Below, piece after piece: positions 1-58,558 of a stretch of 64,000 nucleotides of DNA. A model generated the notes under the pieces. It made no database searches and was not told the origin of the DNA. It saw only the letters and a program-made list of their open reading frames with translations. Source of the DNA: Fervidobacterium changbaicum (GTDB lineage Bacteria; Thermotogota; Thermotogae; Thermotogales; Fervidobacteriaceae); the NCBI RefSeq assembly GCF_004117075.1, contig NZ_CP026721.1, positions 1,736,001 to 1,800,000 of the forward strand, read 5' to 3'. Positions within the stretch are counted from its first letter, which is position 1. Every line of letters begins with the position of its first letter. The translations under genes and the position numbers were made by a program.

Positions 1-1582
1 GTTGTGTACTAACACCACGCACGTTAACGTATCTACCAAGTAGTAATCTAGCAGTTGTTGGTGTTGAGAACTCGACAACGGCTGATTGAACACCTGGGAT
101 ACCTTGAAGAATAGAAGCAGGATTTGTTTCGTTCGTTCTTAAATTCCTGAATACTGTAGGTGGGCTATTATCGTCATTCACGATGGTCGCATCGTAAAGC
201 AAACCATAAACGGGGCTTGATATCGAACCTGAAAGTAGAGAACTTGAAAGTTCTTTGCCGTAGTAACCTTCTCTTGCTATCAAATAAATTCTCGAGCTAA
301 AGCCTATAGAAGTTCGGTCAATGAAACCTGTATTAAACGAGTTTTGACCGTACTTTGCCCAAATACCGTAGAGGCCACGTGCATCGAACTGCCATGCGTA
401 CACGGTTCCATCATTTGCCGCTACGGTGAAATAGTAATTCTCGGACATAAGAGCACCCAACGGTGCGATATTCACAGCACCACTGATTGGTATTGAGCTT
501 GGAATGTTGTACTGCCATACTAAGTTAAACTGTCCGCTTGTTAAGTTATACGAAAGTATGCTTACCTTTCCGTTTCCATACGAAGATGATGGCACAATTA
601 GGTATGTTATACCGTCAAGACCTTTTACGATACCTGGTGTTGAGGTGATCTGTTGTCCGATGCTGAATTCTCCTGCTTTTGTCAAACTGGAGTTAAGTGC
701 TACTACTTTCCCGTTATCTCCAAAGACATAAATAATATCATCACCATCTATTAGCGGTCCAGATGAATTGGCAGCACTCAAGAATGTAACGTGTTGTTCC
801 GAAGGCGATGTGGATGGATCAATTTTGTAGAGTGTACCTTGGTTGCTCAGTGCATAAACGTGTCCGCTACTACTCATCGCCATAGGTGTTGTAAATTCAC
901 CACCAAGAGTTATTGAAGAAACTTCAGTTAGGTCATTTTCATATCTTATCGAGAATGTTCCGTTCTGGGTTAGCACGTATACTCGTGTTCTACCTGGATT
1001 GAGCATCGGGGGTGTTTTAATGGGCTGTCCGAGGTTTACTGTAATAGGTGGTGTTACAAAACTGTTATTCACGGTGTCATAAGTTATTCTATACAAAGTA
1101 CCGTTAACTGTGCCAAGGAAAATAACAATTTGGCCTGAGTCAAGGTATGCTGTAAGTCCATAGGATGGACCGTTTATGTTTGTATAATATGCAGTGCCAC
1201 CTGTACTACCTTGTGTGAAATGATGCACTACGAGTCTATTTTGAGCCGTACCCTGAGCAGTGACGTATATCAAGTACCTGTCAGGACCGCTATCAGGTTT
1301 AATAAACACGGGAGGAGCTACGATGTTCGCCACTTGATCAATTTGTCCTTGTTGAATGGTGCCACCTGCCATAGTCAGTGTGAAAAGAGCACCGTCGTTT
1401 GACAGATAAAGCAAGGTTCCACCTTCCAGCGCAATTATACTCGGTCCTGATTTGCCTGGTATCGACCTTGAGAATGTTGGGGCCCATAATCCGCTGATGT
1501 TCAGTGCAGAAAACGTGAACTGCGGCAACAGAACTATTATGAACGTTAACAAGACAACCAAAAGTTTAAATCGCACCTTCAT
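1..1582 (-). CDS. Secreted PQQ-like beta-propeller protein (3' end outside window)
   Basis: The frame is open on the minus strand from an ATG at 1582 to the window edge, 527 codons, so the C-terminus is missing. A GGAGGG ribosome-binding site precedes the start. The N-terminus (MKVRFK, then a hydrophobic stretch ending FTFSA) is a Sec signal peptide, so the protein is exported. The mature part is a series of beta-strand units rich in Gly, Thr and Tyr with recurring patterns such as LYKIDPST, GKVVALNS and GTVYAWQF, typical of PQQ-like or WD-type propellers that bind other proteins or sugars. No catalytic motif is visible. An IS110 element lies just upstream and separates it from the lipoprotein gene on the same strand, so the two may once have been co-transcribed. 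The exact role is unknown. Confidence 0.8.
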   Translation of the reverse strand, partial: MKVRFKLLVVLLTFIIVLLPQFTFSALNISGLWAPTFSRSIPGKSGPSIIALEGGTLLYLSNDGALFTLTMAGGTIQQGQIDQVANIVAPPVFIKPDSGPDRYLIYVTAQGTAQNRLVVHHFTQGSTGGTAYYTNINGPSYGLTAYLDSGQIVIFLGTVNGTLYRITYDTVNNSFVTPPITVNLGQPIKTPPMLNPGRTRVYVLTQNGTFSIRYENDLTEVSSITLGGEFTTPMAMSSSGHVYALSNQGTLYKIDPSTSPSEQHVTFLSAANSSGPLIDGDDIIYVFGDNGKVVALNSSLTKAGEFSIGQQITSTPGIVKGLDGITYLIVPSSSYGNGKVSILSYNLTSGQFNLVWQYNIPSSIPISGAVNIAPLGALMSENYYFTVAANDGTVYAWQFDARGLYGIWAKYGQNSFNTGFIDRTSIGFSSRIYLIAREGYYGKELSSSLLSGSISSPVYGLLYDATIVNDDNSPPTVFRNLRTNETNPASILQGIPGVQSAVVEFSTPTTARLLLGRYVNVRGVSTQ

Positions 1583-46630: not shown

Positions 46631-46671
46631 TGCGGCGTAGCGTTTTAACTGTCTAATTTGGGGGTGTGCGT

Positions 46672-47919
46672 ATGACAAATGTTGTAGCATTAATACTCGC
46701 CGGTGGACAAGGCACAAGACTGGGAGTACTGACAGAGAAAATACCGAAACCTGCGGTTCAATTCGGAGGGAAATACAGAATAATAGATTTTACACTCAGT
46801 AACTGCGTTAATTCCGGAATTTACAGGGTGGGTGTCCTTGCTCAGTACAGGCCACACCTTTTAAACAAGCACATTGGCATAGGAAAACCTTGGGATTTGG
46901 ACAGAAAGGGTGGCGGGGTGACTATACTCCAGCCATATTCAACACTGACAGAGAGCGTCTGGTACAAAGGAACAGCGGACGCGGTTTATCAGAACATAGA
47001 ATTTGTTGACGAATTCTCGCCCGAATACGTTGTCGTTCTTTCAGGTGACCATATATACTCAATGGATTACAGTGAGTTCGTTTACTACCACGTCTCAAAG
47101 GGTGCACTTGCAACGATAGCGTGTATGGAAGTGCCTATATCAGAAGCACATAGATTTGGTATAATGGTAACTGATATAGATTACAAAATCGTTGATTTCC
47201 AGGAAAAGCCAAAGCAACCGAAATCCAACCTTGCTTCGCTTGGCATTTACGTGTTCAGTTGGGAGTTCATAAAGCAGGCACTTATTGAAGACGCGAAAGA
47301 TGAATCGAGTGAGCACGATTTTGGTAAGAACGTAATTCCGAAGATACTGTCAACCGGGCGTGTCTACGCCTTCCCATTTGAGGGCTACTGGCAAGATGTT
47401 GGAACGATAATGTCTTACTGGGAGACAAACTTAGAGCTTGTAAGGCCTATCCCGCCGTTCAACATCCATGATCCGAATTGGAGAATCTATACAAGGTCTG
47501 AGGAGATGCAACCAGCGTACATATCCCCAACTGGAGAAGTGAGGAACTCTATTGTCAGTGAGGGTTGCGAGATATACGGGCTGGTCGAGAACAGCATCCT
47601 TTCTCAAGGTGTAACAGTCGGCGAAAATAGTGTTATCAGAAACAGCGTGATAATGACAAAAGTCGAGATTGGCGATAATGTCATAATAGAGGATGCAATC
47701 ATCGCCGAAAACACGATCATCAAAAATGGTTGCAAAATAGGGATTGGTGAATTTGCCGAAAGCAAGTACGACAAAAAGGTCTACAATTCCCACATAACCG
47801 TTGTCGGAATGGACACAGTAATCGAAGAAGACTGCGAATTCGGTAAAAATGTCGTTATCGGCAACGACAGGCTCATTCCAAAGGGCACGAAGATAGAGAG
47901 TGGAGGTTACTTCTTCTGA
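46672..47919 (+). CDS. glgC: Glucose-1-phosphate adenylyltransferase catalytic subunit GlgC
   Basis: 415 residues. It makes ADP-glucose from ATP and glucose-1-phosphate for glycogen. The catalytic loop [20 protein letters not shown] is intact, with [33 protein letters not shown] and the sugar-site [11 protein letters not shown]. The C-terminal left-handed beta-helix carries hexapeptides such as [27 protein letters not shown] precedes the ATG at 46672. It acts with the neighbouring GlgD. Confidence 0.95.
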
Positions 47920-47953
47920 TGATTAGTCCTAGCCACAAAAAGGAGGAATTTAC

Positions 47954-48940
47954 GTGGACCTTTATTTCATAAAAGTGCGGGCGAGAAGCAAAGGAACAGC
48001 TGAAGAGATAGTTGGATACTTCTTTGGCAAAACCAACGGTGCACCAGACTTCGACTTTCTGGTCGTTCCTTTGCGCTATTCTGAAGTGGTGGATAATATA
48101 ACCTTAGATGAAGACCTGAGGGAATTCAAAGAAAAACTTGACAAGGCAAAGCAAAAAGTAAAGGAAATACCGGGCGTCTACGACGTCACAATAGCATTTA
48201 TCGCTTACCTTAACAACATGATGAATCGTCGCGGTAAGATACCTTTGGGCATAGAGTTTTCAACAGCTATAAAGGAGAACGACACCGAAGTTCTTAGAGT
48301 TATCATCTCAGACCTACTCGAGGAATGGAGCCCGAAGATGGAGGTCTTTGTCAAAGCCCAGGGGCTGCTCTTGGAAGAATATTCCGCGTACACGTTTCTT
48401 TCAATGCAAGAAGATTTTTCCGATGAAAATGTTGCGAAAGTTTACACACGTCCGGATGTTGCAGACTTACCGGAGGTCTTTCCTGTCATTGACCCCATTA
48501 ACGGTACCTCGATTGTCCAATTCGACGTAGGCGACAAAATTCCGGTCGTTATTTTGAACCCTGGCAAGTACGAAAAGCAGATACGTGAAAAATTCCCCAA
48601 TTTTGACAAGGACAAGTTATCAATAGAGGCAACTATCTTAAGCAAGGAACTGGTTCGGGTAAAAGGTGGAAACTTGTACCTGGTAAAAGTGGAACTTGAC
48701 GAAGGATTGATAGCAAAAGGTTTAGTAAGTCCTGCTCTGAAAATACTAAGTGATGAGGCATACTTTGAAAAAAGAAGAAGACAGCGCGTAGTAGAACAGA
48801 AAGAACCCACAGAAAAATACCCGAAGACCATCAAAGTTGAAATCCCATCAACAACGGGATCCGAACTTCTTATATCTCTCATGACCACACTTTTAATAAC
48901 GGGGGCTTTACTCATAATTATTTACCTCTTTGCCAAATAA
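47954..48940 (+). CDS. Conserved protein with C-terminal membrane anchor, function unknown
   Basis: 328 residues. The bulk is soluble and mixed alpha/beta (FIKVRARSKGTAEEIVGYFF near the start, VGDKIPVVILNPGKYEKQI in the middle). After a basic, Pro-containing linker (EKRRRQRVVEQKEPTEKYP) a single membrane helix (about 306-326, LISLMTTLLITGALLIIIYL) anchors the C-terminus. There is no signal peptide, so the main part is cytoplasmic. I do not recognise a family with certainty; it has the look of Thermotogota-restricted proteins. The GTG at 47954 follows AGGAGG by eight bases. Confidence 0.7.
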   Translation: MDLYFIKVRARSKGTAEEIVGYFFGKTNGAPDFDFLVVPLRYSEVVDNITLDEDLREFKEKLDKAKQKVKEIPGVYDVTIAFIAYLNNMMNRRGKIPLGIEFSTAIKENDTEVLRVIISDLLEEWSPKMEVFVKAQGLLLEEYSAYTFLSMQEDFSDENVAKVYTRPDVADLPEVFPVIDPINGTSIVQFDVGDKIPVVILNPGKYEKQIREKFPNFDKDKLSIEATILSKELVRVKGGNLYLVKVELDEGLIAKGLVSPALKILSDEAYFEKRRRQRVVEQKEPTEKYPKTIKVEIPSTTGSELLISLMTTLLITGALLIIIYLFAK

Positions 48941-48988: not shown

Positions 48989-49969
48989 TTGCAGACAACT
49001 ACTGTGAACGAGAAGAACATCGGCAAGGTAGTAGAACTCGTTTACGAAGAAAAGCAAGAGTTCTATGATGAACTTTTTGGTAAGAATGCATTGAAGTACA
49101 TAAAAGAAGCATTTGAGTACGATATACCACCTTTCATAAAGAAGAACTGCATAGTTTTAGAAGATCAAAAAGGCGTAAGAGCTGTACTTTTGTACGCAAC
49201 CAAAGCAGAATTTCGACACGGATACCAAAGGTGGTTCAGTGTTCTTGGACTAAAGATAATTCCTGTTGGAGCCAAGATGATCTACATCATAGAAAGAATA
49301 TTGATGGATTTTTCCATCGATGATTTGTACGTTGTTTCATTGGCTGGAGAGTTTAAAGAACAGCTTTTATACAGGTTCATAAAATCAAGCAGGTATAAGA
49401 AAATCATTGTTGATACGCTGAATTCCGATTTATACGAGCGGTTCAGCTTTGGAGAAGAAAAGCCAATACATGCAAAACTGAAAAGGTTCTCGAAATTTTG
49501 TGACTACCACACATTAACCGGTATAGGTTGGGACACTCATCCGCTTGTCCAAGGCAGAAAATTAATACTCGGTGGAGTTCAAATAGATTCTCAACTTGGC
49601 CTTCACGGTCATTCCGATGCAGATGTGCTTTGCCATGCGCTTATCGACAGCCTACTTGGAGTGACTTTGAAAAAGGATATAGGTGCTGTATTCCCAGAAA
49701 ACGACGAAAACAAAGGTCGGAGCAGTTTAGAGATGCTGGAATTAGTCGTGCAGACCGTTAACAAAAGCGGTTTCTTCCCATCATCTGCAGATTGTGTTAT
49801 AATTTCACCGATTAAGTTGAAAGATTACAGGGAAAAGATATCGAATAGGCTCGAAAACGTCCTGGGTTGCCCGGTTTCGATAAAATTCAAAACTGGTAAT
49901 GGTGTATACCCTGAATCCGAGATGAAGGGAATAACGGCAATGTGTGTGACAAATGTGGACAAGGTGTGA
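48989..49969 (+). CDS. ispF: 2-C-methyl-D-erythritol 2,4-cyclodiphosphate synthase with N-terminal GNAT-like domain
   Basis: 326 residues; the C-terminal 150 (177-326) are IspF, the cyclase of the MEP pathway. Zinc ligands D182, H184 (GIGWDTHPL) and H208 (GLHGHSDADVLCHALID) and KKDIGAVFPENDE are conserved. The first 170 residues are a separate domain whose strand and helix order (GVRAVLLYA, IDDLYVVSLAGEFKEQLLYRFI) suggests a degenerate GNAT acetyltransferase, without the RxxGxG acetyl-CoA motif. IspF is more often fused to IspD, which this domain does not resemble. Start is TTG at 48989 after GGGGTGG. Confidence 0.88.
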   Translation: MQTTTVNEKNIGKVVELVYEEKQEFYDELFGKNALKYIKEAFEYDIPPFIKKNCIVLEDQKGVRAVLLYATKAEFRHGYQRWFSVLGLKIIPVGAKMIYIIERILMDFSIDDLYVVSLAGEFKEQLLYRFIKSSRYKKIIVDTLNSDLYERFSFGEEKPIHAKLKRFSKFCDYHTLTGIGWDTHPLVQGRKLILGGVQIDSQLGLHGHSDADVLCHALIDSLLGVTLKKDIGAVFPENDENKGRSSLEMLELVVQTVNKSGFFPSSADCVIISPIKLKDYREKISNRLENVLGCPVSIKFKTGNGVYPESEMKGITAMCVTNVDKV

Positions 49970-56468: not shown

Positions 56469-57509
56469 GATCCTGTTAACTTGTAGTGATGGAAGACAAT
56501 AGAACACAGATAACACGCGCAATATCATTGTTGTTCAGTTTCAAGAGATTTCTCACTACACAAAAGCTGTTCACGTACATTGGAAGATTGTCAATATTCT
56601 TAAATCCACGCTTGGCTCGTACAAAGTCTTGGAATAACGAAAACTTCGATTCACATTGATTGTTTTGCCCAAGTCTCACAACAATATGATTGATATTCTT
56701 GTATAGTATCTTCACTGCACCATATGCACCAAGTCCATCTGTAATTAGTTCGATTGTTCTTTCGTTGTTACCAAAGAACTTCTCTAACAATATCTTCACT
56801 TGACCCATATCGCGATATTTGGATACATGCCAAGCAACAATAAGATTCGAATCGTGCTCAACTAAGAACCAAACGTAGTACTTTTTGGATTTAAACAAAA
56901 CGACAGTTTCATCACCATGGACTTTGAAAGCATCTACAGGAACGAGGATGGAAAAGAAACAAGACAACTTAAGGATCCACTTGTAGATAGCGACATGAGA
57001 GACTTTGATATTAAGTGAGTCTCTGATGGAACGCAAGGACACAGCTTTGAAATAAAGGACGAAGGCTTTAAGGACAATAAAGATAGGGAAGCGGAAGAAC
57101 TTGAAAGAGTCGAAAGGAAGAGGGACAAATTGAGGTAAGTTAGTTGGGATTTCGTCTCTGGTATGGCAAGAACGGCAACGGAACTTAACGAAGGCTTTTT
57201 TGATTTTGTGGATTTGCATAGTTTTTCCACAGACAGGGCATTTAGGATAAGGGAAAGAGAAGAGCTTGTGTTTTTTTGAATGAACAAGTCTGAAAGTGCG
57301 CTTACAGTCTTTGCAAAAGTATTGTTGGTTACCGTACTTATCATGACCGTTTTTGTAGATGTTGGTAGAGCCGCATTTGGGGCAAGAGACTACAGAATTT
57401 TGCATAGTGGAGTACCTCCTTTTTGTGAGAATTGATGGTGGGGGGTGTTCCACTAATAAGAAGATAATACGGTTTTTGGAAATTTTCAATACTTTTAGTT
57501 AACAGCATC
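56469..57509 (-). mobile_element. IS6-like insertion sequence, copy 1 (1041 bp)
   Basis: Left end GATCCTGTTAAC and right end AGTTAACAGCATC form the inverted repeat; this copy has a C for G at position 4 of the left end compared with copy 2. It contains one transposase gene on the minus strand whose stop lies inside the left inverted repeat. It is flanked by ACCTTACA. It is followed eight bases later by copy 2 in the same orientation. Confidence 0.92.
56476..57405 (-). CDS. IS6-like DDE transposase with zinc-ribbon N-terminus, copy 1
   Basis: 309 residues. There are two zinc-ribbon units, C8/C11/C31/C34 and C56/C59/C77/C80, then a helix-turn-helix (KVSHVAIYKW) and the DDE catalytic domain with D165 (HGDETVV), D223 (ITDGLGAYG) and E252 (NNQCESKF). 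The frame is intact. The ATG at 57405 is chosen because AAAGGAGG lies about nine bases upstream; the longer frame up to 57489 would begin at the right end without a site. The end differs from copy 2: NNNDIARVIC here. Family assignment to IS6 rests on the 8-bp duplication and catalytic-domain pattern and is tentative. Confidence 0.85.
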   Translation of the reverse strand: MQNSVVSCPKCGSTNIYKNGHDKYGNQQYFCKDCKRTFRLVHSKKHKLFSFPYPKCPVCGKTMQIHKIKKAFVKFRCRSCHTRDEIPTNLPQFVPLPFDSFKFFRFPIFIVLKAFVLYFKAVSLRSIRDSLNIKVSHVAIYKWILKLSCFFSILVPVDAFKVHGDETVVLFKSKKYYVWFLVEHDSNLIVAWHVSKYRDMGQVKILLEKFFGNNERTIELITDGLGAYGAVKILYKNINHIVVRLGQNNQCESKFSLFQDFVRAKRGFKNIDNLPMYVNSFCVVRNLLKLNNNDIARVICVLLSSITTS

Positions 57510-57517
57510 ACCTTACA

Positions 57518-58558
57518 GATGCTGTTAACTTGTAGTGATGGAAGACAATAGAACACTCATAACACGCGCAATATCATTGCCATTCAGTTTCAAGAGATTT
57601 CTCACTACACAAAAACTGTTTACGTACATTGGAAGATTGTCAATATTCTTAAATCCACGCTTGGCTCGTACAAAGTCTTGGAATAACGAAAACTTCGATT
57701 CACATTGATTGTTTTGCCCAAGTCTCACAACAATATGATTGATATTCTTGTATAGTATCTTCACTGCACCATATGCACCAAGTCCATCTGTAATTAGTTC
57801 GATTGTTCTTTCGTTGTTACCAAAGAACTTCTCTAACAATATCTTCACTTGACCCATATCGCGATATTTGGATACATGCCAAGCAACAATAAGATTCGAA
57901 TCGTGCTCAACTAAGAACCAAACGTAGTACTTTTTGGATTTAAACAAAACGACAGTTTCATCACCATGGACTTTGAAAGCATCTACAGGAACGAGGATGG
58001 AAAAGAAACAAGACAACTTAAGGATCCACTTGTAGATAGCGACATGAGAGACTTTGATATTAAGTGAGTCTCTGATGGAACGCAAGGACACAGCTTTGAA
58101 ATAAAGGACGAAGGCTTTAAGGACAATAAAGATAGGGAAGCGGAAGAACTTGAAAGAGTCGAAAGGAAGAGGGACAAATTGAGGTAAGTTAGTTGGGATT
58201 TCGTCTCTGGTATGGCAAGAACGGCAACGGAACTTAACGAAGGCTTTTTTGATTTTGTGGATTTGCATAGTTTTTCCACAGACAGGGCATTTAGGATAAG
58301 GGAAAGAGAAGAGCTTGTGTTTTTTTGAATGAACAAGTCTGAAAGTGCGCTTACAGTCTTTGCAAAAGTATTGTTGGTTACCGTACTTATCATGACCGTT
58401 TTTGTAGATGTTGGTAGAGCCGCATTTGGGGCAAGAGACTACAGAATTTTGCATAGTGGAGTACCTCCTTTTTGTGAGAATTGATGGTGGGGGGTGTTCC
58501 ACTAATAAGAAGATAATACGGTTTTTGGAAATTTTCAATACTTTTAGTTAACAGCATC
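57518..58558 (-). mobile_element. IS6-like insertion sequence, copy 2 (1041 bp)
   Basis: Same length and orientation as copy 1. The perfect 13-bp inverted repeat is GATGCTGTTAACT at the left, and its complement AGTTAACAGCATC at the right. Few base differences from copy 1, mostly at the 3' end of the transposase. It is followed directly by an 82-base repeat of its own right end. Confidence 0.92.
57525..58454 (-). CDS. IS6-like DDE transposase with zinc-ribbon N-terminus, copy 2
   Basis: 309 residues, almost identical to copy 1 with the same zinc ribbons and catalytic D165, D223 and E252. It ends NGNDIARVMS where copy 1 has NNNDIARVIC. Same ribosome-binding site and ATG (58454). Both copies look functional, so either could drive further copying of the array. 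Confidence 0.85.
   Translation of the reverse strand: MQNSVVSCPKCGSTNIYKNGHDKYGNQQYFCKDCKRTFRLVHSKKHKLFSFPYPKCPVCGKTMQIHKIKKAFVKFRCRSCHTRDEIPTNLPQFVPLPFDSFKFFRFPIFIVLKAFVLYFKAVSLRSIRDSLNIKVSHVAIYKWILKLSCFFSILVPVDAFKVHGDETVVLFKSKKYYVWFLVEHDSNLIVAWHVSKYRDMGQVKILLEKFFGNNERTIELITDGLGAYGAVKILYKNINHIVVRLGQNNQCESKFSLFQDFVRAKRGFKNIDNLPMYVNSFCVVRNLLKLNGNDIARVMSVLLSSITTS

Follow-up and report, generated by a model that had tools for sequence, protein, structure and literature searches.

A predicted GNAT-fold domain lacking the acetyl-CoA loop is fused to IspF in the Fervidobacterium and Thermosipho lineage

Results and discussion

The fused gene and its reading frame

The window (the whole stretch of 64,000 nucleotides that was analysed, from Fervidobacterium changbaicum) contains a single open reading frame in which an IspF (YgbB) domain follows an N-terminal domain of predicted GNAT fold (Table 1); the sequence GGGGTGGT lies three bases ahead of its start codon, a TTG. 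IspF (MEcPP synthase) is an essential enzyme of isoprenoid synthesis, much studied as a drug target, and IspD is its commonly described fusion partner. The genes dxs and uppS are also located within the window. Throughout the window's family (f1; 20 genomes), glgC is found near the fused gene (all 20 loci, L001-L020), DUF4899 in 16 of the 20 loci, and both frr and uppS in ten, these counts coming from short loci in which absences are not firm; the glgC/DUF4899 neighbourhood (46666-48940 in the window) is conserved, with no evident functional link.

Table 1. Features of the fused gene, and the N-extended IspF frames of family f11.
Feature	Position	Strand	Details or basis
Fused pseudo-GNAT and IspF gene	48989..49969	+	TTG start; 326 aa plus stop
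N-terminal GNAT-fold domain, residues 1-171	48989..49501	+	AlphaFold2, VIA-align, hhalign
Predicted elements, first part: strand 2-5; helices 11-21, 23-43; strands 54-59, 62-71			AlphaFold2
Predicted elements, middle: helices 72-76, 79-106; strand 112-120; helix 123-133			AlphaFold2
Predicted elements, last part: strand 138-143; helix 146-151; strands 155-157, 165-170			AlphaFold2
Inserted helices between strands 3 and 4, residues 72-106	49202..49306	+	AlphaFold2 and family alignment
Site of the missing P-loop, residues 117-126, from the last part of strand 4 into helix 3	49337..49366	+	alignment, motif counts
IspF (YgbB) domain, residues 177-323	49517..49957	+	PF02542, E 5.2e-41
Zn ligands Asp182 and His184 (DxH)	49532..49540	+	invariant, 20/20
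Third Zn ligand, His216	49634..49636	+	invariant, 20/20
Asn304, equivalent to Glu135, a Mg/Mn ligand in E. coli IspF	49898..49900	+	column matched to the Glu of B. subtilis IspF
N-extended IspF frame (f11)	L112:3131-3925	+	divergent N-extension
N-extended IspF frame (f11)	L102:36-890	-	divergent N-extension

IspF is mostly a stand-alone protein, which would favour reading this frame as separate genes that were mis-joined, or as the product of a frameshift. At least one in-frame ATG, GTG or TTG does occur within the 30 codons before the IspF motif in 17 of the 20 f1 genomes, where a separate initiation of IspF is possible, judged by codons alone; the window, however, has no such codon within this distance, nor do 2 of the 19 other f1 genomes, and the frame is open, co-linear and free of stops in all 20. 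The mis-joined separate gene that the sequence-only reading had set against its own proposal of a fusion is thus hardly credible.

The IspF part

The C-terminal part scores 116.7 bits with the IspF profile TIGR00151, just above the cut-off of 116.45, and the Asp, His, His set of Zn ligands expected of IspF is complete; the roles of the Zn and Mg/Mn ligands are given in PMC3927217. At the Mg/Mn-binding position, all 20 fused proteins have Asn304 in place of Glu or Asp, which the same source puts at 81% and 18% of IspF sequences (99% together); Glu or Asp is thus usual at this position, not defining. The asparagine is not tied to the fusion, since unfused proteins have it too: each of the 17 sequences aligned in A6 (f1 proteins, eight unfused IspF from families f2 and f3, and two from f11) carries it. 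By eye, Asn also occupies this position in three rows each of f9 and f10, while Glu is kept in three rows of f7 and one of f8; the loci concerned include L107, L108, L115 and L118.

Of the other MEP enzymes, IspE scores above its cut-off in all 20 f1 genomes, in frames of ordinary length (264-296 aa). IspD has some match in all 20, with E at or below 1.2e-50 in 19, the genome with only a weak match being G073 (60% complete); its cut-off is passed in only 10 of the 20, the window's genome not among them (its separate IspD-like match, G000:C1:2166864-2167529, scores 171.9 bits where 181.3 would be needed). Most f1 IspD frames are of ordinary length. In G072 and G076, IspD-like proteins are matched strongly at two places per genome; one of the two matches lies within a longer frame (458 or 503 aa), possibly a further fusion protein of IspD type.

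Fold of the N-terminal domain

Neither Pfam nor NCBIfam has a family, IspD included, that matches residues 1-171 alone at E 10 or better. In a Foldseek search with the whole model, the top rows are structures of IspDF, over 274-297 columns, at an rmsd of 12-13 and with the same TM as for IspF alone; only the IspF part thus fits these structures. The domain was therefore modelled separately for a search of its own. AlphaFold2, run on the family alignment, reaches a pLDDT of 90.8 with the whole protein and of 88.2 when given only residues 1-171, and it predicts for the latter the order of strands and helices typical of GNATs, b1-a1-a2-b2-b3-b4-a3-b5-a4-b6-b7, plus helices that are inserted after strand 3 and before strand 4. 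Within the inserted helices, eight residues (K72, F75, R76, Y79, W82, G87, G94 and K96) are invariant in all 20 fused domains.

Against the PDB, Foldseek finds 46 matches to the domain at E <=0.001 (best E 5.5e-6), and the best 50 rows are nearly all titled acetyltransferases. VIA-align, used as a second look at the matches that Foldseek supplied, places an N-acetyltransferase of Staphylococcus aureus first among solved structures (4m85_C; Z 16.3, rmsd 2.9, 162 aligned), and polyamine and arylalkylamine acetyltransferases are among the further matches. Searches of PDB sequences are silent on this fold: the best match of the sequence-only search (E 1.7) is not credible, and the profile search returns no GNAT, its best match being an NBS-LRR protein (E 0.08); both were taken as chance.

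Relation to free-standing GNATs and loss of the acetyl-CoA loop

In single fused proteins, the Pfam GNAT hits are not significant (best E 0.015, in 2 of the 20), and it is the comparison of profiles that brings out the relationship. Below the fused genes, the profile built from the N-terminal domain (A2, 20 rows) yields 11 weak hits; three were opened, of which L051 (E 6.5e-4) and L059 (E 0.005) sit in free-standing GNATs and L058 does not. With L059 as the query, 20 free-standing GNATs of Thermotogota were chosen from a search (A3), and their alignment matches that of the fused domains in hhalign with a probability of 97.9% and an E of 4.9e-13 (for that one comparison) over 160 columns. The free-standing proteins (L059, L079 and others) thus share with the fused domain the fold family and the sequence relation, which extends to the segment that links strands 3 and 4; they differ in having no IspF attached and in the acetyl-CoA site.

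The P-loop, crucial for recognising the pyrophosphate of acetyl-CoA, has the consensus [QR]xxGx[GA] according to PMC3814719. This motif is present in 20/20 of the A3 GNATs and in all 25 GNAT frames that were correctly read, counts partly due to selection since the GNATs were retrieved with a P-loop-bearing query, against 0/20 of the fused domains. An alignment of seven fused domains with ten GNATs locates the loss: NVAVDKNYRGRGYGRKLM in L079, a free-standing GNAT from the genome of the window, corresponds to SLAGE-FKEQLL in the fused domain of the window, seven residues shorter, and the same segment is four residues shorter in the three Thermosipho-type rows; a second deletion follows strand 5.

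The domain is for this reason filed as a GNAT-fold pseudo domain and not as an acetyltransferase; as far as sequence goes, loss of the acetyl-CoA loop suggests that it is non-catalytic, though an absent P-loop is no proof against CoA binding. The view that the domain is still an active acyltransferase, its cofactor site being unusual, could draw on the complete GNAT fold, predicted at good confidence, but is very improbable given the absence of the motif throughout and the shortening of the loop by four to seven residues in the seven aligned members. In sum, the domain very probably has the GNAT fold, is related to free-standing GNATs and lacks the P-loop, as judged from the model together with these comparisons. 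The sequence-only reading, which had proposed for the first 170 residues an acetyltransferase fold without the acetyl-CoA loop, and not IspD, is supported on these points: no IspD match was found; structure prediction, fold comparison and profile-profile comparison all indicate a GNAT and not an unrelated fold; and the loop is missing both by motif count and in the alignment.

Distribution of the fusion

The whole fused protein was searched against 103 Thermotogota genomes and found a match in 97. In all 20 f1 genomes the match covers both parts (from query residue 1-10 to 323-326), and there is one IspF match per genome, always the fused gene, which is thus the only IspF found there. In the other 77 the best match is confined to the IspF part, without the N-terminal domain; one of them, G063, gives a second hit of 18 bits to query residues 102-213 in a frame of 926 aa, which is taken as chance. 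The A2 profile recovers the same 20 fused genes (E <=2e-70) and, beyond these, nothing better than E 6.5e-4. A pattern-based scan of 84,980 species genomes, which can miss distant relatives and omits records near the window's own, returns seven loci, all from Fervidobacterium, Thermosipho or a Thermotogota bacterium. The fusion across Thermotogota, which the sequence-only reading had marked for a survey, is therefore family-wide in f1 and was not found in the 77 other IspF-bearing genomes. In the open-access library that was searched, we found no description of a GNAT-IspF fusion in Fervidobacterium, Thermosipho or Thermotogae.

Members of the Fervidobacterium/Thermosipho family live in hot habitats, and the domain might only stabilise the IspF trimer at high temperature, as a cap for folding or thermostability without a specific partner. 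This is unlikely. Protein stability is one suggestion made for the pseudo-acetyltransferase domain of O-GlcNAcase in PMC3814719; Thermotogota of the same order, however, have IspF without a match to the domain, so that heat alone does not demand it. Strong selection on the domain also speaks against such a cap, although a cap would be constrained as well.

Selection and conservation

For ten genome pairs, dN/dS was estimated with a script of our own. The domain has values of 0.068-0.113 in the five pairs with unsaturated dS, and is thus maintained by purifying selection; the IspF part has values of 0.026-0.142 in the eight pairs where it is estimable. Invariant residues fall on the acceptor and the cofactor half of the fold at 22 vs 6 in the fused set, and at 2 vs 12 among the free-standing GNATs (Fisher p 1.4e-4). 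In controls limited to Fervidobacterium and its sister genus, the counts are 39 vs 17 for 11 fused domains and 45 vs 32 for 8 GNATs; a shift of conservation toward the acceptor half is thus seen with the full sets only and is lost in the control subsets, and it was not used as evidence.

These data bear on the idea of a ligand sensor, in which the pocket of the pseudo-GNAT would bind a small molecule and tune IspF allosterically. The acceptor half of the fold is retained, residues of the inserted helices are invariant, and polyamine and arylalkylamine acetyltransferases are among the fold matches, all of which would suit a sensor; yet the sequence points to no ligand, fold likeness says nothing on the ligand, and the shift of conservation is not robust. 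A sensor is conceivable, but we rate it as rather improbable.

Comparison with known fusions and proposed role

Two known systems resemble the fused protein in part. In IspDF (Campylobacter jejuni 1w55, Helicobacter pylori 8xhu), an N-terminal alpha/beta domain is likewise joined to IspF at the same end, and passages of PMC10663253 and PMC5821942 name this IspF fusion only. The enzyme IspD forms the N-terminal domain of those proteins, whereas the protein described here has a predicted GNAT fold lacking the P-loop in that place, with IspD encoded at another locus. In human O-GlcNAcase (3zj0) and a eukaryotic counterpart (6r45), a domain of GNAT fold without the P-loop consensus is likewise fused to an enzyme (Z 12.1 for both); it is described as a pseudo-acetyltransferase that does not bind acetyl-CoA, and its bacterial homologue OgpAT has helices similarly inserted between strands 3 and 4 (PMC3814719). 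O-GlcNAcase differs in the partner enzyme and in carrying the domain on the C-terminal side of it, and loss of acetyl-CoA binding, measured there, is inferred for the domain on IspF. The pairing of a pseudo-GNAT with IspF is a new architecture built of two known folds.

In the Fervidobacterium and Thermosipho lineage, an in-frame joining of ispF to a GNAT gene may have given rise to this architecture; the joined GNAT would then have lost cofactor binding and been kept as a non-catalytic module for binding or assembly, adding alpha/beta lobes to the IspF trimer, and its remaining acceptor-side surface, with the conserved inserted helices, could bind another protein or a small ligand. Taken as a whole, a cofactor-dead GNAT that serves the IspF trimer in binding or assembly is the best explanation and a reasonably likely one; its functional part, a non-catalytic module for binding or assembly, is by itself a tentative proposal, and the frames of IspE and most frames of IspD, being of ordinary length, point to no partner. 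Of tethering and metabolite sensing, the two roles that the sequence-only reading had offered, the data single out neither; assembly or partner binding is tentatively preferred over sensing.

A more specific form of partner binding, in which the pseudo-GNAT would be a docking platform that recruits another protein to IspF (such as IspE, IspD or a partner linked to the membrane), seems decidedly unlikely. If true, it would amount to a built-in MEP scaffold in place of the disputed association of IspD, IspE and IspF in other bacteria. More generally, the assembly of MEP enzymes is called controversial in PMC5821942, and a domain retained on IspF offers a handle on this question. The family-wide fusion looks like a clean natural reuse of the acetyltransferase fold as a non-catalytic module, whose function, with the fused gene as the sole IspF found and a thermophile as the source, is directly testable by deletion and structure.

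N-extended IspF in family f11 and a transposase pair

When N-extensions on IspF were sought by eye in 26 genomes outside f1, two f11 genomes, G100 (264-aa frame) and G101 (284-aa frame), proved to encode an IspF extended by about 115-125 residues. None of the tests ties these extensions to either GNAT set: hhalign gives a probability of 1.6% (E 0.03) against the free-standing and 0.2% (E 0.31) against the fused set, HMM scores are at background, and a Pfam scan of the G100 extension finds no match. In an rpoB tree (23 rows), f11 lies outside the order, f2 and f3 are nearer to f1, and f11 is not the sister of f1, so that a common origin of the N-extensions would need intervening losses or transfer; an IspF tree (46 rows) shows both proteins on long branches and groups G100, but not G101, with f1 at weak support (84/87). 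The f11 N-extension is possibly a second, reduced fusion.

Elsewhere in the window, two nearly identical transposase frames stand in tandem on the reverse strand (56476-57489 and 57525-58538), the first of them DDE_Tnp_IS240, between genes that we take to be mreC-like and GGDEF-like.
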